Assembly: GCA_016218495.1 (NCBI GenBank)
Contig: JACRDU010000103.1
Location: forward strand, 1 to 37,911
DNA: 37,911 bases
Source of the DNA: Elusimicrobiota bacterium
Lineage (GTDB): Bacteria > Elusimicrobiota > Elusimicrobia > UBA1565
Direction of reading: 5' to 3'
A model generated the notes under the pieces. The model was not told the origin of the DNA, ran no database searches, and was given only the letters and a program-made list of their open reading frames with translations. The translations under genes were made by a program, and so were the position numbers. Below, piece after piece: positions 29,624-37,692 of the stretch; positions within the stretch are counted from its first letter, which is position 1; each line of letters opens with the position of its first letter.

Positions 29624-30298
29624 TCACGCCTCCATCAGCCCCCGCTCCCGGAAGCTGAAGTAGCCGCGCGCCGCGACGATGAGGTGGTCGAGCACGGGCA
29701 ATCCCAGGATGCGGCCCGCCTCGCAGAGGCGCCGGGTGGTCTCCCGGTCCTCGCGCGAGGGCTCGGGGTCCCCCGAAGGATGGTTGTGGGCGACGATGAG
29801 GGCGGCCGCGGGGCGCTCGAGGGCGGGGGCGAAGACCTCGCGGGGATGGACCAGGCTGGCCGTCAGGGTGCCGACGGAGACCGTCTCGCGGTGCAGCGGG
29901 CGATGGGTGGCGTCGAGGTAGAGGGCGACGAAGTGCTCCTTCTTGAGCGGGGCCAGCTCGCCGAGCTCGCGCAGGGCGCGGCGCGGGGAATCGATGGGCT
30001 CGGGGGAGGAGGGGGAGGCCCCCGCCCAGCGCCGGGCCAGCTCCAGGGCGGCGGCCAGGCGCGCGGCGCGCGACGCGCCCAGCCCGCGCTCGGCGGCCAG
30101 CTCGGCCGGGGCGAGGCGGCCGAGGGCCCCTTCGGGATGGCGGCAGAGCAAGGCCTCGGAGAGCGCCAGGGCGTCCTGTCCCGGGACGCCGGTGCCCAGC
30201 ACGCAGGACAGGAGCTCCGCTTCGCTGAGCGCCGCCGGACCGCGCGCGAGGAGCCGCTCCCGCGGGCGGGAGGAGGGCGCCTGAGGCAGGGAGCTCAC
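29624..30298 (-). CDS. radC: RadC family JAB/MPN-domain protein
   Basis: 224 residues from a GTG at 30298, set by a four-base overlap with the RseB-like gene. The JAMM metal site is complete: HNHPSGDPEPSRED with His171, His173, Ser181 and Asp184; the conserved Glu lies in KKEHFVALYLD. An N-terminal helix-hairpin-helix-like region (ALSEAELLSCVLGTG) is typical. The family is named for radiation sensitivity but its role is unresolved. Its place inside an ECF sigma operon is unusual. Confidence 0.92.
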   Translation of the reverse strand: MSSLPQAPSSRPRERLLARGPAALSEAELLSCVLGTGVPGQDALALSEALLCRHPEGALGRLAPAELAAERGLGASRAARLAAALELARRWAGASPSSPEPIDSPRRALRELGELAPLKKEHFVALYLDATHRPLHRETVSVGTLTASLVHPREVFAPALERPAAALIVAHNHPSGDPEPSREDRETTRRLCEAGRILGLPVLDHLIVAARGYFSFRERGLMEA

Positions 30299-31317
30299 GG
30301 AGCCTTCGGCGCGGGGACGGACTCCGCCACTTTGCGCAGCTCGTCGGCGGAGAGCCGTCCCATCAGCACGAAGCGGTCCCCGGCCGACCACTCCAGCGAT
30401 TTGCCGTCGGCCAGCAGGCTGAGCCCGGCCTGCGCGGCGCCCACCTTCGTGCGCCGGGGCCGGCTGCCGGCCGGGGGACGGATCCGGGTCCGGGCCGGGG
30501 ACTGGAACATCGAGAGGGCGTCGACCCCGTCCGACCAGCGGTAATGCAGGAGGGTGGCTCCCTTGTAAGGGAGCACGCTGACGCTCTCGAAGACATAGCC
30601 CGGGGGCACCCAATCCGGCGGGCGCGGGAGCATCCCGGTGGCGCCGGCGGCCTCCTCGAGCTCCAAGGCGTCCGGCGCGGGGCGCGCCTTGAGCACCCGT
30701 GTCCCGGCCGGGGGCTTGAAGCGGAAATCCGAGGCTGCGGGCTTGACGGAGAGGTCGATGGTCTCGAAGCTCATCTTGAAGGCCTCGGAGCCGTCGGGCG
30801 CGAAGACGGCCCGGCGCAGGACCACGCCCTCCTCGGCGTCCACGCAGAGCGTTTGGGCCGGGGCCCCGCCGCGGCGCGGCGAGACCTCCAGGACCCGGCA
30901 CGGCCGCCCGGCCACGGTGTCCTCGCCGGCGCGACGCACCTCATAGTTGTCGAGCAGCAGGGCCAGCTCCTCCTCGGGGTCGGAGAAAGGGCGGGCCGAG
31001 GCCCGCGAGCCCCCCTGCCAGGCCGTCTTCAGACGCCTGTCCCAGACCCACTCGGTCTCGGCGTCGGAGACGACCAGGCGCTCCACCGTGCCGAAGCGGT
31101 CGAGGGTCTCGCGGCGGGAGCGGCCGGGGGGGGCGTAGCGCACGTTGAGCCAGCGCGTCTCCGGGACGTTGGAGCGGGCCTCCGTGACCGACACCGTGCC
31201 GCTGTAGGAGACGGCGGGCGGGTCCAGCGCTTCCCGCAACAAGCGCGCAGCGTCGTCCTCCACGGCCCAGGACGGCAGGGCGAGCAGGCACAGGAGCAGG
31301 GCCGCCTCAGAAGACAT
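30295..31317 (-). CDS. MucB/RseB-like exported sigma regulator
   Basis: 340 residues. A signal peptide (about 1-18, MSSEAALLLCLLALPSWAVE) precedes a LolA/RseB-type beta domain: YSGTVSVTEA, TEWVWDRR, and DNYEVRRAGEDTVAGRPCRV, with a second smaller domain (WVPPGYVFESVSVLPYKG, HYRWSDGVDALSMFQS). RseB binds the periplasmic part of the anti-sigma factor and blocks its proteolysis until lipoproteins or misfolded porins displace it. The gene directly follows an ECF sigma/anti-sigma pair, which supports that role. Confidence 0.85.
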   Translation of the reverse strand: MSSEAALLLCLLALPSWAVEDDAARLLREALDPPAVSYSGTVSVTEARSNVPETRWLNVRYAPPGRSRRETLDRFGTVERLVVSDAETEWVWDRRLKTAWQGGSRASARPFSDPEEELALLLDNYEVRRAGEDTVAGRPCRVLEVSPRRGGAPAQTLCVDAEEGVVLRRAVFAPDGSEAFKMSFETIDLSVKPAASDFRFKPPAGTRVLKARPAPDALELEEAAGATGMLPRPPDWVPPGYVFESVSVLPYKGATLLHYRWSDGVDALSMFQSPARTRIRPPAGSRPRRTKVGAAQAGLSLLADGKSLEWSAGDRFVLMGRLSADELRKVAESVPAPKAP

Positions 31318-31792
31318 CGCCTTCCCCTCCGGCCGAAGCCAGGGTCAGGTCGGGGGCCGGGGGCTCCGTCTCGGCAGGAGCCAGGGGCATCGTGCGCAGG
31401 AAGCGCTCGTGGGCCGACACCAGCACCTCGGCCGGCACCTCGAGCTCGGCGTCGGGGGCCGGGCCGCGGTGGGTGAAGACGAGCAGGGCCGCGGCGGCCA
31501 GGCCCGCGGCGGCGACGGCGCCGGCCGGCTGCAGGAAACCCGAGCGAACCTCGCCGAGCAGGCGCGCCCACCAGGGCGCGGGGCGCGCCCCAGCCAGAAG
31601 GGAATCGACGAAGCCCGGCGGAGCGTCAGGCGCGGGGAGGGCGGCCAGCGCGCGCCGGGCGGCTTCGATGGAGCGCAGGCGCCGCGCGCAGGCCGCGCAG
31701 CCGGACAGGTGCGCCCGGACGAAGGCCGCCTCTTCGGCGGGGGCCTCGCGGTCCGCGAAGGCCGACAGCGATTCGGAGTTCGGACAGGTCAT
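31307..31792 (-). CDS. zinc-finger anti-sigma factor
   Basis: 161 residues. The ZAS zinc motif HLSGCAAC (His28, Cys32, Cys35) lies near the N-terminus, followed by a membrane helix at about 90-107 (AGAVAAAGLAAAALLVF) and a periplasmic tail. The protein should hold the ECF sigma factor at the membrane and release it on signal. It overlaps the sigma gene by four bases and the RseB-like gene by 11. Confidence 0.85.
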   Translation of the reverse strand: MTCPNSESLSAFADREAPAEEAAFVRAHLSGCAACARRLRSIEAARRALAALPAPDAPPGFVDSLLAGARPAPWWARLLGEVRSGFLQPAGAVAAAGLAAAALLVFTHRGPAPDAELEVPAEVLVSAHERFLRTMPLAPAETEPPAPDLTLASAGGEGDVF

Positions 31793-32349
31793 GGCTTCAC
31801 CTCCGGCATGCGAGACAAGACGGTGCGGAAGGCCATCCGGGCACGGTTGATGCGGGAGCGGATGGTCCCGAGCGGGACGTCGAGGACCTTGGCCGCCTCT
31901 TCGTAGCCGCGACCCTCCATGTCGCAGAGCACGAGGACGGAGCGGTGCTCCGGGCTGAGCTTGTCGAGGGCGCGCCGCACCGCGGCGCCGGCGTCCCGGC
32001 GTTCCAGGGTCTCGAGCAGGGCCTCTTCCTGGTCGGGCAGGAGGTCGGCATAGCTCTCTTCCCCGAAAGGGCCGGAAACCGGGACATCCAGGGAAACGGT
32101 GCGCCGCCGCTCGTGCCGGCGCGTCTCGTCGAAGACCACGTTGCGCAGGATGCGGAAGAACCAGGCGTCGAAGGGCTTGGACGGGTCGTGCTCGTCGAGG
32201 TGGGCCAGCAGGCGGTGGAAGGCCTCTTGGGCCATCTCCTTGGCCTCTTCGGGGTTGCCGCAGAGGCGATAGGCGAATTGGTAGGCCTTGTTGCCATAGC
32301 TCCGTACGAACTCCTCGAAGTTCCGGCCTTGAACCGCCTCGAAAGCCAC
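31789..32349 (-). CDS. ECF-type RNA polymerase sigma factor
   Basis: 186 residues from a GTG at 32349. This start is preferred because AGGGAGG lies 6 bases upstream; the ATG at 32406 would add 19 residues. Region 2 reads FRSYGNKAYQFAYRLCGNP-like at its start and AQEAFHRLLAHLDEHDPSKP; region 4 reads LSPEHRSVLVLCDMEGRGYE and LGTIRSRINRARMAFR, all typical of SigE-type ECF factors. It should direct polymerase to envelope-stress genes, with the next two genes as regulators. Confidence 0.93.
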   Translation of the reverse strand: MAFEAVQGRNFEEFVRSYGNKAYQFAYRLCGNPEEAKEMAQEAFHRLLAHLDEHDPSKPFDAWFFRILRNVVFDETRRHERRRTVSLDVPVSGPFGEESYADLLPDQEEALLETLERRDAGAAVRRALDKLSPEHRSVLVLCDMEGRGYEEAAKVLDVPLGTIRSRINRARMAFRTVLSRMPEVKP

Positions 32350-32421
32350 CCGCCGCCTCCCTTTGGACGCCGCCCCGATTCTCCCATCTTGGGGCCCCTC
32401 CGGCAACGGGCCCTATGCTAG

Positions 32422-32485: not shown

Positions 32486-33283
32486 ATGCGGCCGATCCTC
32501 TTCTCCTTCGGGAACCTGCACGTCCTCGCCGCCCCGGTCTTCGCCGGCTTCGCCGCCATCGCCGCGGCGCTCTACATCCGCCGCAACCGCGCCTACGCGG
32601 AACTCGACGGAGAGCGCTACTGGGACCTGATGCTGCCTCTGGCCGTAGGCACCATCGGGGGCGGCGTGCTGCTCTACTTCTTCTTCTACGGGGGGGGAGC
32701 GGCCAAGAACTGGGCGAACTTCCTGCGCACGCACCGGGTCGGAGGCGGGGCCTTCTACGGGGACATCATCGGGGCCCTGACCACCGCCTGGGTGGTCTGG
32801 AAGGTGAAAGGGCTGTCGTTCCGCAAGACCGCCGACCTCATCGGAGCGGCCGCTCCGCTCGGCCTGGCCGTGATGCGCCTGGGCTGCCTGCAGCACGGCT
32901 GCTGCTACGGCAAACGCACCGACCTGCCCTGGGGGATCGTCTTCAGCGACGAACGCTCGGCCGTCTGGCGCCGCTACCTGAACACGCCGCTGCATCCGAC
33001 CCAGGTCTATGAGTTCCTCGTCGCCTGCGCCATCTTCGCGGCGGCGCACTTCCTCGTGCTTCCGCGCGTCAAGGACGGCCGGCTCCCCCGCGGCTCGGTC
33101 CTTGTCTTCTTCCTGGTCTCCTACGGCGTGCTGCGCTTCATGCTGGAATTCCTGCGCGGCAGCGACCCGGGCCTATACCGTCCCTACGGGTTGACCACCG
33201 CCCAGGCGCTGGCCGTGGCCTCCGCCACGGGGGCCTCCGTCCTGTGGGCGTACTGGAAGAAGACCGATGCCCTCAAGGCCTGA
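32486..33283 (+). CDS. prolipoprotein diacylglyceryl transferase family protein (GCCYG variant)
   Basis: 265 residues with about seven membrane helices. Lgt attaches diacylglycerol from phosphatidylglycerol to the lipobox cysteine. The family layout is visible (FYGDIIGALTTAWVVWK; MRLGCLQHGCCYGKRTDLPW; HPTQVYEFLVACAIF; GSVLVFFLVSYGVLRFMLEFLR). The usual Lgt signature GR-GNF-N-E is replaced here by R-LGC-HGCCYG, as in a wide group of Lgt-like paralogues. Standard Lgt activity is therefore uncertain. It starts a + strand unit with the WGT membrane protein and two GGCCG-tailed peptides. Confidence 0.85.
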   Translation: MRPILFSFGNLHVLAAPVFAGFAAIAAALYIRRNRAYAELDGERYWDLMLPLAVGTIGGGVLLYFFFYGGGAAKNWANFLRTHRVGGGAFYGDIIGALTTAWVVWKVKGLSFRKTADLIGAAAPLGLAVMRLGCLQHGCCYGKRTDLPWGIVFSDERSAVWRRYLNTPLHPTQVYEFLVACAIFAAAHFLVLPRVKDGRLPRGSVLVFFLVSYGVLRFMLEFLRGSDPGLYRPYGLTTAQALAVASATGASVLWAYWKKTDALKA

Positions 33284-34052
33284 CCCGCGGCGCTGGGCCC
33301 TCTTCCTCGGAGGCGCCGTCCTGATGCTGGCGGTGGCGCTTTGGCGCCGAGACCTCTTCCTGCAGGCGCTGAGCGTGACCCTGGCCCAGCTCCAGCGCGG
33401 CGGCTTGGCACGGGTCAAGCTCCTCATAGAAGCCGGGCTCTTCGCCGGCATCCTCCTCTACACCCTGCGGGTCATCCCGGAACGCGCCGACCTGCGCAAG
33501 GACGCCCTGCGCGTCGCGCTGGGCTTCGCGGCGGGCTACCTGGCCGAGGCCTGGGGGACGCGCTTGGGGCTGTGGCGCTACTACACGCGGGAGACTCCCC
33601 CGCTCTGGATCGTCCCGGCCTGGCCGCTGGGCGCATTGGTCATCGAGCGCACCGCGGCGCGTTGGGCTCCCGCCCTGTCGCGCCTGCCCGCGGCGGCCGG
33701 GAGGGGGCTGCATGCCCTGGCCATCTTGCTGGTCCTATCCACCTTCCTGCTGATGGCGGGCCCCGCCATAGGCCACCCCGCCACTTGGGCGGCCTTGGCC
33801 GTCGTCTTCTGGGCGCTCTTTTGGCGCATCAGCGCGCGGGACCTACCCGTGCTGGCCGCGGGGGCGTTCTGCGTGCTTTTCGCCGACACCTGGGGCACGA
33901 CCAACAACTGCTGGCGCTATTGGCTGCAGCGCCCGTACGGCACCTGGGGGTTGGCGGCCGGCGTGGGCTTCGGGGTCTGCTTCGACACGGCCGTGGTCCT
34001 GGGCTGCCTGAAAGCGGCAGAGGGCCTAGATGGTATGGGCCAAAGGTCCTAG
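33267..34052 (+). CDS. membrane protein with duplicated WGT-WRY motif
   Basis: 261 residues and six to eight hydrophobic helices. Two sections repeat the same spacing: Glu94-A-WGT with WRY at 103-105, and Asp207-T-WGT with WRY at 216-218. Each is followed by a Trp/Pro-rich stretch (LWIVPAWPLG; RPYGTWG). This suggests an internal duplication with an acidic residue in each half near the membrane. I do not recognise the family. It overlaps the Lgt-like gene by 17 bases. Confidence 0.7.
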   Translation: MPSRPDPRRWALFLGGAVLMLAVALWRRDLFLQALSVTLAQLQRGGLARVKLLIEAGLFAGILLYTLRVIPERADLRKDALRVALGFAAGYLAEAWGTRLGLWRYYTRETPPLWIVPAWPLGALVIERTAARWAPALSRLPAAAGRGLHALAILLVLSTFLLMAGPAIGHPATWAALAVVFWALFWRISARDLPVLAAGAFCVLFADTWGTTNNCWRYWLQRPYGTWGLAAGVGFGVCFDTAVVLGCLKAAEGLDGMGQRS

Positions 34053-34064
34053 GCCCTTTGGCCC
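34037..34064 (+). terminator. hairpin at the end of the WGT gene
   Basis: GGGCCAAAGG (34037-34046) and CCTTTGGCCC (34055-34064) make a perfect 10-bp stem with an 8-base loop covering the stop codon. Only TT follows, so it could be an attenuator, partial terminator or mRNA stabiliser before the small-protein genes. Confidence 0.55.
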
Positions 34065-34134
34065 TTGCCGACGCCTCGGACCCAAGGCAAAGTCTCTATA
34101 CGGACGCGCCCGAGATTCGGGCCGGGGGAAGACC

Positions 34135-34386
34135 ATGAGGAACATTCTCAAGAAAGGATTGGTGCTCGGCTTCGCCTTCGCCGCATTGGGGGCCTTGGCC
34201 ATCTCCCCCGGCTTCACACAGACCAATGACCGCGGGACGAGCGGGGCCCCGAACGGCACCGGGATGACCGGTGAAGAGGCGCAGGCCTATCGCGACGGAT
34301 ACAACGCCTCGTTCCAGAAGGCCAAGGAAGACCAGCAGGCCGCTCTGGACAAGGAACAGGAATCTTCGGGCGGGTGCTGCGGCTGA
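34135..34386 (+). CDS. small exported protein with SSGGCCG tail (copy 1)
   Basis: 83 residues from the ATG at 34135, preceded by GGGGGAAG. Residues 1-29 form a signal peptide (MRNILKKGLVLGFAFAALG, then ALAISPGFTQ). The mature part is hydrophilic, with AYRDGYNASFQKAKEDQQ, and ends ESSGGCCG. The only cysteines are the two at the C-terminus. It is paralogous to the next gene. Lower GC codons than neighbours are not obvious. Function unknown; the Cys pair could carry a lipid, metal or disulfide. Confidence 0.75.
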   Translation: MRNILKKGLVLGFAFAALGALAISPGFTQTNDRGTSGAPNGTGMTGEEAQAYRDGYNASFQKAKEDQQAALDKEQESSGGCCG

Positions 34387-34403
34387 GGCCCAGGAGAACC
34401 AAA

Positions 34404-34607
34404 ATGAAAAACATGACCAAATTCATGGTGTTCGCTCTGGCGCTCAGCGCCCTCGGAACGATGGCCGTCTCGGCCCCCGCGGCCGACACGACAGCGGCAT
34501 ACAACCAAGGCAGGGCCGATGGCTCGGCCAAAGGGAAGCAGGCCGCCATCGACGACCAGCCCGCGGACGAGAAAGAGGAGTCGTCTTCCGGCGGCTGTTG
34601 CGGCTAG
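34404..34607 (+). CDS. small exported protein with SSGGCCG tail (copy 2)
   Basis: 67 residues from the ATG at 34404, with AGGAG 6-10 bases upstream. Signal peptide about 1-27 (MKNMTKFMVFALALSALGTM). The mature part has AAYNQGRADGSAKGKQAA and ends EESSSGGCCG. The AY..G......K.K..Q.A..D spacing and the tail match copy 1, 17 bases upstream. A terminator follows at 34641. The two are the most abundant-looking small genes of the cluster, with good ribosome sites. Confidence 0.75.
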   Translation: MKNMTKFMVFALALSALGTMAVSAPAADTTAAYNQGRADGSAKGKQAAIDDQPADEKEESSSGGCCG

Positions 34608-34640
34608 CCGACGACAGAGCCGGATTCCCCCGTAATAGAA

Positions 34641-34670
34641 GAGGCCCGCCGAAAGGCGGGCCTCTCTGTT
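34641..34670 (+). terminator. rho-independent terminator after the GGCCG-tailed genes
   Basis: A perfect 10-bp stem, GAGGCCCGCC with GGCGGGCCTC, a GAAA tetraloop and TCTGTTAT after it. It may also act on the convergent gene that ends at 34708. Confidence 0.85.
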
Positions 34671-34707
34671 ATGGGGATGGAATAATAACAGGCACGATGG
34701 AATAGGT

Positions 34708-35610
34708 CTAGCGGGGCTGGGACTGTTGGTGGCGTTGGACGGCGGTCTTGGCGCCGGAGAGGTTCGTCATGTTGCCGGTGACCTTGAGGTCGGAGGCCAG
34801 GGTCTTCAGGGCGGAGAGGTCCTGGCCGGGCTGGATGGCCTGCGGCAGCAGGCTGCCGGTGCGCGGGATGAGGTAGCCGGTGAGGTCGGTGACGAAGGTG
34901 GCCACCTTCTTGTCCTCGGTGAGGAAGCGCTTGACCTCGTCGTAGACCGGCTTCGGGGGCTTCTGGCGCAGGCCCTCGAGCATCATCCCCATCGTGACCC
35001 GCCAGACGTCACCGTTGGTGGCGTACTTGTATACGGTCTTGCGCACCTCGGGCAGAGCCACCGCTCCGCGAACGAAGTCATAGGGGTTCCGATTCCTCTC
35101 ATACTGGGCTTTGAGCGCCATATACCTCGGCATGCGTCCGAAGGCCGCGTCGACCTCCCGGACGATGGACTCCTTCTTGCGGTAGCGGGTAGTAATCTTC
35201 TTGAGCCGGTCCTGTTCGGCTCTGACGAGGTGGTCGTACTTCATGACCATCTCCCGCTCCCTGGATCTGGAATCGTCCTCCTGCTCCTTGGGGTCCTTAT
35301 AGAAGATTTTGTCCTTTTCGGGGACGAAGCCGGACAGGCCGGGGCCGGCCGAGGCTAGGCGCGACTGAGCCTCCCTTTCCGCCTGTGAGACGTAGCGCTC
35401 CGACGAGGGGAAGGCGGGGGCAGGCTCGTCGTCCGGAACCGCTTCGACGTTGAAGGCCTCCGCCTCCGAGACTTCGGCGGCTTGCTCCTGTGCCTGTTTG
35501 CGCCCGAGCATCCACCACATGAAGAGGGTCAGCGCCAGGATGGGGATCAGCGCCAGCCACCATTTGAATCCGGAAGGCGCGGGGGCCTGGGATGGGGTTT
35601 CCTCTTCCAT
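34708..35610 (-). CDS. membrane-anchored protein of unknown function
   Basis: 300 residues. A short cytoplasmic N-terminus, one membrane helix (about 16-35, WWLALIPILALTLFMWWML), an acidic linker, a helical section with a basic coiled-coil stretch (EQDRLKKITTRYRKKE) and a C-terminal domain. It is a bitopic protein with its bulk in the periplasm. No family is recognised. It has its own promoter at 35626-35654. Confidence 0.65.
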   Translation of the reverse strand: MEEETPSQAPAPSGFKWWLALIPILALTLFMWWMLGRKQAQEQAAEVSEAEAFNVEAVPDDEPAPAFPSSERYVSQAEREAQSRLASAGPGLSGFVPEKDKIFYKDPKEQEDDSRSREREMVMKYDHLVRAEQDRLKKITTRYRKKESIVREVDAAFGRMPRYMALKAQYERNRNPYDFVRGAVALPEVRKTVYKYATNGDVWRVTMGMMLEGLRQKPPKPVYDEVKRFLTEDKKVATFVTDLTGYLIPRTGSLLPQAIQPGQDLSALKTLASDLKVTGNMTNLSGAKTAVQRHQQSQPR

Positions 35611-35631: not shown

Positions 35632-35654
35632 ATGTGGAGGTCGGCCCCTGTCAA
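35626..35654 (-). promoter_or_regulatory. sigma70-type promoter of the 34708-35610 gene
   Basis: On the minus strand TTGACA (35654-35649), 17 bases, TACACT (35631-35626). The -35 overlaps the stop codon of the oxidoreductase gene. The leader before the ATG at 35610 is only about 8-10 bases. Confidence 0.75.
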
Positions 35655-36541
35655 GAAACCGGGTCCAGGCGCTCCAGGACCTTCGTCACCGCGAGGGCGC
35701 GCGCGCCGTTGCTAGGGCCTCCCCGACGAACCAGACGGGCGAACGCCTCGAGGGCGAAACGCAGGTTATGGCCCTCGGCGGCAGAGAACCGGGAGAGCTT
35801 CCCGGGCAAGAGGTCTCCTACCACCCAGCGCAGGCGCCTATACCGCCGCACCAGCAACGCCGGAGAGCTCCCGGGACGATAGAGCACGCTCCCCTCGGTC
35901 CCGTAGAGGACGACCTCGGTATCTTTCCCAGGGTAGTTGAGGCTCAAGGAAATCTCCGCCCGGAACCCGGGCCCCTCGGCCGAGATAGCCCCGCTCTCGA
36001 CCGCGCCGCGGCAGACCACGAGGTCGCGGCGAATGAAGCGCAGGCCTTCCAGAGGCACGAACAGGTCGAGGACCGAGAGCATGTGCGAACCGAGGAGCCA
36101 GTACACGCTGCCTCCTCCGAATCGTCCCAGATGGCGCACTGAAAGCTCCGCTCCGCTCAGACGACCGATGGCTCCGGAGCGCACCAACTCCCGCGCCTTG
36201 GCCAGGGCGCGCGAGAATGTGTGGGTATAGTCCACCATGAGCGGGGCCTCGCGGGCCCGTGACAAGGCGAGGAGATTCCGGCATTGCTCGACGCTGAAGC
36301 ACAAAGGCTTCTCGCAGAAGACGGCATTGCCGGCCGTCAGTGCCGCAGATACGATGCGAGGACGCGCGGCGTTGGGCACCGCCTCGACCACAGCCTCCAA
36401 CTCAGGATTGCGGGCCGCTTCGACCGCCCCGGCGCGTCCGCTGACGCCCGCCAGCTCGAACAGAGGGGACTCCCTCAGGTAGCGTTCGAGCTTGGAACCC
36501 CAGTAGCCGCGCCCGATGAGGCAGACCCGGACGGGCCTCAT
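35651..36541 (-). CDS. Gfo/Idh/MocA family NAD(P)-dependent oxidoreductase
   Basis: 296 residues. The Rossmann motif is LIGRGYWGSKL near residue 9, and the family lysine is in FCEKPL (EKP, about 77). The C-terminal half has the Gfo/Idh/MocA beta-sheet pattern (LGRFGGGSVYWLLGSHMLSVLD with a conserved His). These enzymes oxidise or reduce sugars, often nucleotide-sugar precursors. It overlaps the radical SAM gene by four bases, so they may act in one pathway. Confidence 0.85.
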   Translation of the reverse strand: MRPVRVCLIGRGYWGSKLERYLRESPLFELAGVSGRAGAVEAARNPELEAVVEAVPNAARPRIVSAALTAGNAVFCEKPLCFSVEQCRNLLALSRAREAPLMVDYTHTFSRALAKARELVRSGAIGRLSGAELSVRHLGRFGGGSVYWLLGSHMLSVLDLFVPLEGLRFIRRDLVVCRGAVESGAISAEGPGFRAEISLSLNYPGKDTEVVLYGTEGSVLYRPGSSPALLVRRYRRLRWVVGDLLPGKLSRFSAAEGHNLRFALEAFARLVRRGGPSNGARALAVTKVLERLDPVS

Positions 36542-37692
36542 GGCGCGCCGTCCCGCGAGGCCCAGCGGGCGTTGATCTCGAGGGCCATCCGGTTGCAGCG
36601 GGCCCCCTCCGCGAAGCAGGTAGAAGGACGGAAAGCTGGGTCCTGGTCCCGGAGCATCATCGCCTCCAGCTCAGGCAGGGCCTCCGGGATGCAACCGAGC
36701 CGGTTCATGGCGAAGCTCGGCGTCGCCGTGCTCGAGCAGCGGTAGACCCAGCCGTCGGCACCGAAGGTAATCTGGTAATAGCCGTACACGCATTGGAGGA
36801 AGTGCATCCGGTCCACATCCTGGTGCTCCGGAGAGATGTAGAAGACGAAGGGCCTCTCCTCGCGATCCTTCGAAAGTAGCCGGGAGAGGCGGCGTTCATA
36901 TTCCGCGCGCTGGCCGACTTCGACTGTCCCCTTATACCGCCGGACCTCCTCGAAGTCCTTCCCGTAGACCTCGTAAGGGATGGAGAATCTCAGAGTGTCT
37001 ACTCCAATCCGGCGGGCGGTCTCCACCATCGCTGAGAGCTCGGCCTCCGAGGAGTTGTGCTTATTGAGCAGATAGCAGACCCTAATCTTGGGAGTAGTCC
37101 GCGTCCCACGCGCGGAGACGGCCATGCGCAAGCCCTCGATGATATCGGTGAACCAGTCCTGGTCGAGGTTCTTGGTCAGCATGTGGCTCTCGGGCGCGCC
37201 CGCGTCTAGGCTGACCGAAAGATAGTCCTGCGGGCCCGAGGAGATGCGGCACAGCTCGGAGAGGAACCCGGAATCCCCCTCGAGCTTCTTGAGCAGCGAC
37301 CCGTTGGTATGGATTCCGAAGCTCGAGCCGTGGCGCTTGGTCAGGCGCAGATAGTCCATGAAGCGCGGGTTCATGAGCGGCTCGGTATAGACGCCGCCAT
37401 AGATGCAGTAGGGGACCCGCCCCCCGAGTTCATCGAGCAGTCGGAGCCCCTTGTCCTCCCATTGGCCCATCTCTTGAGCGAGCAGCTTGCCCTGGCAATA
37501 GTAGCAGTGGAAGTTGCACGGGGTGGCCCTGTCCGCGGGGAGATGAATCTCCAACTGCCGGGGATACACGAGCCTGCCTGAGAATACCTCTGACAGGCCG
37601 CCGCCCAAATGGCGCTTCAGGAGCTCGAAATAGTGGTACTCTGCGGGCCTCAAGTCCTGATTACGGGGCTCAGCCCCTTGTCGGTCATCCAT
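36538..37692 (-). CDS. radical SAM protein with SPASM-like C-terminal cysteines
   Basis: 384 residues. The radical SAM cluster motif is Cys59-x3-Cys63-x2-Cys66 (CNFHCYYC). YGGVYTEPLMNPRF and IHTNGSLL are the usual barrel strands. After the barrel comes a Cys-rich part: CVYGYYQITFGADGWVYRC, GC and CFAEGARC, which fits an auxiliary SPASM/twitch Fe-S site. Such enzymes modify peptides or sugars; with a Gfo/Idh/MocA partner a sugar or cell-surface substrate is plausible. It is led by a strong promoter. The substrate is unknown. Confidence 0.85.
   Translation of the reverse strand: MDDRQGAEPRNQDLRPAEYHYFELLKRHLGGGLSEVFSGRLVYPRQLEIHLPADRATPCNFHCYYCQGKLLAQEMGQWEDKGLRLLDELGGRVPYCIYGGVYTEPLMNPRFMDYLRLTKRHGSSFGIHTNGSLLKKLEGDSGFLSELCRISSGPQDYLSVSLDAGAPESHMLTKNLDQDWFTDIIEGLRMAVSARGTRTTPKIRVCYLLNKHNSSEAELSAMVETARRIGVDTLRFSIPYEVYGKDFEEVRRYKGTVEVGQRAEYERRLSRLLSKDREERPFVFYISPEHQDVDRMHFLQCVYGYYQITFGADGWVYRCSSTATPSFAMNRLGCIPEALPELEAMMLRDQDPAFRPSTCFAEGARCNRMALEINARWASRDGAP

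Follow-up and report, generated by a model that had tools for sequence, protein, structure and literature searches.

The window, a stretch of 37,911 nucleotides, is contig C69 in an Elusimicrobiota genome of 4.15 Mb (labelled G000), and between positions 32486 and 34607 it holds four consecutive genes on the + strand, the first two of which share 17 nt of reading frame, as an earlier note on this DNA had described. The first gene (32486..33283, 265 aa) encodes a membrane transferase, an Lgt paralogue that belongs by profile to PF01790 (145 bits, cut-off 24.9, E 3e-42) and to what we call the Lgt subfamily. The second (33267..34052, 261 aa) encodes a polytopic membrane protein, WGT, in which a WGT...W.Y motif occurs twice (EAWGTRLGLWRYYT and DTWGTTNNCWRYWL). 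After a gap of 82 nt follows pepA (34135..34386), and after a further 17 nt pepB (34404..34607), each preceded by a purine-rich, ribosome-binding-like stretch (judged by eye). The product of pepA is an exported protein of 83 aa, built from a signal or anchor sequence, a low-complexity linker and a C-terminal GGCCG (...ESSGGCCG); that of pepB, 67 aa long, has the same architecture and ends in ...ESSSGGCCG. The two are paralogues with 40% identity and, from these start codons, the final Cys pair, Cys81 and Cys82 in pepA, comprises their sole cysteines, which agrees with the earlier description of an exported pair whose cysteines lie only in a C-terminal SSGGCCG. The unit ends in a long GC-rich hairpin on the + strand (about 34628..34676; RNA fold MFE -50 kcal/mol, z -7.3), which sits between convergent genes, with the opposing gene at 34708, and is likely a bidirectional terminator; it is absent from the list given by a consensus terminator scan. 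Because this gene set is found again across nine genera, its arrangement is not due to chance, and we refer to it below as the module.

Divergent from the module (30295-32406, - strand) lie genes for an ECF sigma factor, a zf-HC2 anti-sigma factor and a MucB/RseB-like protein, a trio of the envelope-stress type. ECF sigma-like ORFs adjoin the module also in G001, G005, G004 and G006, and the ECF sigma set may therefore control the module. At the end of the window (35651-37692, - strand), a gene for a GFO/IDH/MocA oxidoreductase overlaps one for a radical SAM protein.

Lgt-family proteins move diacylglycerol onto cysteine thiols. The window genome encodes LspA and five PF01790 genes, and the Lgt-like gene is thus an extra copy; against the TIGR00544 equivalog it scores 88 bits, under the cut-off of 118.9 and hence outside the equivalog. 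A profile of the subfamily (A1), made from six neighbour loci and run on 341 Elusimicrobiota genomes, returned 16 matches of at least 270 bits and one at 210 bits, with the remainder below 200. These 16 members form a single clade (support 100/99) apart from the ordinary Elusimicrobiota Lgts. The AF2 model of the Lgt-like protein (pLDDT 93.2) matches E. coli Lgt (5azb) with Z 18.4 and rmsd 3.8 over 240 residues, and the next match scores 8.2.

To describe the active site, we compared 15 members of the subfamily with 13 ordinary Elusimicrobiota Lgts, using E. coli numbering. Y235, R239 and R246 are present in 15/15 members and R143 in 14/15 (K in one), and E202, D129, G99 and G154 are also retained. 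The pocket formed by R143 and R239 activates the C3-O bond of phosphatidylglycerol (PMC4728403), and since both arginines are kept, as R131 and R217 in the window protein, the donor pocket looks intact, while residues of the entry side are altered: Y26 is replaced by A or S and G142 by M in 15/15 members, and R73 by V, L or A in all of them, whereas the ordinary Lgts have both Y26 and G142 intact (13/13) and a K at the R73 position. Both Y26 and G142 are essential in E. coli Lgt, as is H103 (PMC4728403, PMC13251419), and activity of the subfamily is therefore not to be assumed. Loss of H103 was considered as a mark of an altered enzyme and ruled out, because the ordinary Elusimicrobiota Lgts likewise have F, Y or W there; H103 and N146 are substituted in both groups alike and both positions also vary in other phyla, H103 being Y, W or F in other species (PMC13251419). 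As for the other Lgt copies, the four further PF01790 genes of the window genome lie on C139, C117, C95 and C125 (L006, L007, L009 and L010); that on C95 has Q at the H103 position, and that on C125 is short and very divergent (36 bits against the A1 profile). Across the phylum, the genes for ordinary Lgts often stand in tandem pairs (G008:C3, G012:C4, G022:C8, G028:C35, G033:C11, G040:C156).

The WGT protein has no Pfam or NCBIfam family, Insig included, for any of its 53 relatives. The first five structural matches to its AF2 model (pLDDT 93.7) are all Insig proteins, headed by mycobacterial MvINS (4xu4, 4xu6), with the next unrelated match at Z 4.3; however, this resemblance is borderline (Z 8.2, Foldseek E 0.09), spans WGT residues 72-261 and comes with no sequence family link and with unrelated partners, and so the modelled Insig-like fold is only suggestive. 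MvINS was reportedly crystallised with diacylglycerol bound, in a structure paper of 2015; if it does bind this lipid, an Insig-like WGT would, by analogy, fit a lipid-presenting partner. Outside Elusimicrobiota, Chloroflexi and a few other groups have WGT relatives of about 35% identity, as part of a widespread unnamed membrane family (L069-L137; Chloroflexi, one Myxococcales, one Gracilibacteria) whose loci are without Cys-tail peptides: our strict tail rule gave 0 matches in these 69 Chloroflexi-type WGT loci from other phyla (882 kb), and the Lgt subfamily is absent from the 14 genomes with such relatives that were searched for it. We therefore rejected WGT as a marker of the module beyond the phylum.

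The tails of the exported proteins vary more than the GGCCG of the earlier note. Every readable neighbourhood of a subfamily gene but one holds one to three Cys-tail genes, and the tails include GGCCG, GGCCGG(S), GGCCS, TGCCG, GGGGCGCG, GCCGSTN(N)SSS and CGNCGSGA, as well as GCGCG and CGNCG, so that CC, CxC and CxxC spacings are all found and neither GGCCG nor GGCCS is universal. What is conserved is a pair of closely spaced cysteines no more than about 10 residues from the C-terminus, and the description as GGCCG was too narrow. Along the peptides, the N-terminal half is well conserved, with a segment [KR]xxVIxFAxAxxGxMxVSxRxxA whose conservation exceeds the needs of a plain signal peptide; the linker is almost free to vary, and the Cys pair is constant. 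The signal peptides do not end in a lipobox Cys, and because the final pair comprises the sole cysteines of most peptides, these offer no signal-sequence Cys for ordinary Lgt action; in peptides of G216, G005:C3 and G000:C92, additional cysteine lies in the early part of the signal sequence rather than where it ends. The copy on C92, the third in the window genome, is unlinked to the module, and several genomes hold peptides unlinked to the genes for the Lgt subfamily and WGT. In G191 and G216 the peptide genes lie 1-2 kb from the subfamily gene on the opposite strand, and the exceptions to a local peptide are G006, at a contig end, and G215, with a peptide ending in GGCCSKSK on another contig. 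Pfam and NCBIfam matches to the peptides look like low-complexity noise, and we set them aside.

The co-occurrence of the three components, which the earlier note had proposed as its check, proved strong. Among the 341 genomes, the Lgt subfamily and WGT are both present in 16, the Lgt subfamily only in 0, WGT only in 1 and neither in 324 (Fisher 1.5e-26); the WGT-only genome is G007, where WGT lies about 0.5 kb from the contig end. In G005 (C38/C64) and G022 (C58/C69) the two are co-present yet unlinked. A peptide is found in 15 of the 16 genomes with the subfamily, and the corresponding table (both 15, Lgt only 1, peptide only 3, neither 322; p 2.4e-22) is not fully independent, since the peptide profile (A3) was built in part from peptides adjoining Lgt loci. 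Because co-occurrence is partly inherited by descent, we repeated the tests collapsed by genus, and obtained p values of 5e-13 for the Lgt subfamily with WGT and 5e-12 for the Lgt subfamily with the peptide. Less biased evidence comes from the first pattern search and from the loci found with the A1 profile. The first search, for genes encoding a signal peptide, a low-complexity stretch and GGCCG-COOH, found them in 8 of 57 genomes, and five of the newly found genomes have the tailed gene beside an Lgt. The prospective search led from 6 seed loci to 10 new loci of the subfamily, with a peptide in the genome for 9 of the 10; the tenth (G006) is without a peptide and is interrupted by a contig end. 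Of these results, the prospective one carries the least bias. The strict tail rule gave matches in 13 of 15 subfamily loci, 12 of them true and one spurious, in L175, a locus with three real peptides that each have an extra Cys and fall outside the rule; at the 27 other Lgt loci (101 kb) it gave none. The peptides track the Lgt-subfamily clade specifically, and not other Lgt copies. Distances within the Lgt subfamily and within WGT also correlate (r 0.69, Mantel 0/5000), which fits joint inheritance and is no proof of contact. These data strongly support the association of the Lgt subfamily, WGT and the peptides.

The converse case, GGCCG tails that are common without these neighbours, had been named as one that would refute the idea, and we find it clearly only in G009, with G002 and G007 being at contig ends. 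G009 (91% complete) has four Cys-tail exported peptides without the Lgt subfamily or WGT; they are of a separate type (..VSLKR.TVAQ..) with GGCCG(G) and SGCCG tails (L043 2006-2564, L220 6416-6610, L054 7393-7779). We also rejected GGCCG as a general anchoring tag: in five genomes with the system, the matches with a readable locus show the tail on short exported proteins only, and the other pattern matches lie in noncoding or unlikely frames, part of the matches having carried no locus.

To account for this association, we propose that a dedicated Lgt paralogue puts diacylglycerol on the C-terminal cysteines of exported peptides, a reading to which, judging from sequence conservation, we give an even chance. 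The small proteins would be exported via an N-terminal signal or anchor sequence and would then display a flexible, fast-evolving tail with two terminal cysteines. The paralogue, in which the catalytic arginines of Lgt and its pocket for the donor lipid appear to be retained and the entry side is changed, would take diacylglyceryl from phosphatidylglycerol and place it, on the periplasmic side, on one C-terminal thiol or on both; WGT, as the constant partner, would possibly bind either the lipid or the lipidated tail, or pass it on. The resulting peptide would be anchored to the membrane by its C-terminus, and by its N-terminus too if the signal is uncleaved. The conservation is most economically read as lipid on the C-terminal Cys pair, because a clade of a thiol-lipidating family travels with exported proteins in which the C-terminal thiols vary least. 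What the data show is the gene set with its conservation and co-occurrence, the clade to which the enzyme belongs, and the fold and residue pattern; from these we infer which reaction takes place, its acceptor and donor lipid, what WGT does and what use the cell makes of the product.

The subfamily might instead be a second ordinary or degenerate Lgt that serves N-terminal lipoboxes elsewhere, with the peptides linked to it through the same envelope process and left unmodified. The shared fold, the membership in PF01790 and the multiple Lgts of several genomes agree with this, as does the case of M. smegmatis, whose second Lgt, MSMEG_5408, is changed at Y26 and presumed to be of low activity (PMC13251419). 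We nevertheless consider it unlikely, since the peptides follow this one clade rather than the other Lgt copies, and since the invariant M for G142 and A or S for Y26 would suggest a changed substrate rather than redundancy. That the Cys pair forms a metal or thiol site, in tethered periplasmic metal binders or redox tails, while the Lgt-like protein and WGT have another target in the same process, seems to us quite unlikely: closely spaced cysteines are also compatible with metal binding or disulfide chemistry, the CC, CxC and CxxC spacings resemble soft-metal sites and some linkers are acidic, but the linkers are otherwise of low complexity and share no further ligand residues, the constant companions are a thiol-lipidating enzyme family and a membrane protein, and the neighbours that could be identified include no recognised metal transporter, thioredoxin or metalloregulator. 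A lipopeptide with a signalling or antimicrobial role, whose C-terminal segment would first receive lipid and then be set free, WGT serving as its exporter, as the partner of a protease or as an immunity protein, would explain tandem paralogous precursors with variable middles and a conserved end, and has a parallel in DAG-RiPP hybrids that use Lgt on an N-terminal Cys (PMC12636315), but is improbable, as no constantly present protease, ABC exporter or modifying enzyme was seen, and the constant end spans about 5 residues only, with the N-terminal half better conserved.

The module shares with the housekeeping Lgt the PF01790 family, the fold (5azb), the catalytic arginines and the donor pocket, and presumably an exported cysteine as acceptor; it differs in the replacement of Y26, R73 and G142, in its sub-equivalog score, in having WGT as a partner, and in peptides that are without a lipobox Cys and carry their cysteines at the C-terminus. 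To our knowledge, Lgt action has so far been described on the N-terminal lipobox cysteine only. Eukaryotic Rab GTPases are prenylated on C-terminal GGCC thiols, and resemble the proposed product in bearing lipid on a terminal Gly-Gly-Cys-Cys; however, they are cytosolic, carry prenyl groups and depend on unrelated enzymes. DAG-RiPPs (Dyb pathway) also apply the Lgt pathway to small ribosomal peptides, but there an ordinary Lgt pathway places diacylglyceryl on the N-terminal Cys and an MNIO enzyme modifies the C-terminus (PMC12636315). The nearest published idea is MYXO-CTERM of Myxococcota, a group of exported proteins whose C-terminal Cys motif (GCGC in its generic form, CC in TraA) resembles the tails described here; in this myxosortase system, the MYXO-CTERM proteins are predicted to be lipidated by a postulated "predicted Lgt-like acyl-transferase", the enzyme being unidentified (PMC11980579). 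Unlike MYXO-CTERM proteins, the peptides have 1 to 8 residues after the second Cys, with no transmembrane helix or Arg-rich end, and because nothing hydrophobic follows the Cys no sortase step would be needed. A search of 189 Myxococcota genomes, a set without a positive control, gave no member of the Lgt subfamily. A search of the literature library for Lgt with C-terminal lipidation or with Elusimicrobia found nothing, and no account of this gene set.

The gene set is new and the enzyme kind known, two of the three parts of the module belong to no Pfam or NCBIfam family, and the proposed reading makes an unusual and directly testable prediction. With its two genes and a small peptide, the module could be reassembled in E. 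coli, with mass spectrometry as the readout. Tentatively, and at slightly less than even probability, the module would define a second kind of bacterial lipoprotein, in which S-diacylglyceryl on C-terminal cysteines provides the anchor, put there by an Lgt clade devoted to this task together with a lipid-binding, Insig-like partner, and which is made without lipobox, signal peptidase II or sortase. If true, this would provide an enzyme of the type postulated, but not identified, for MYXO-CTERM, and C-terminal acceptors for a dedicated Lgt clade would reverse the polarity of lipoprotein anchoring.
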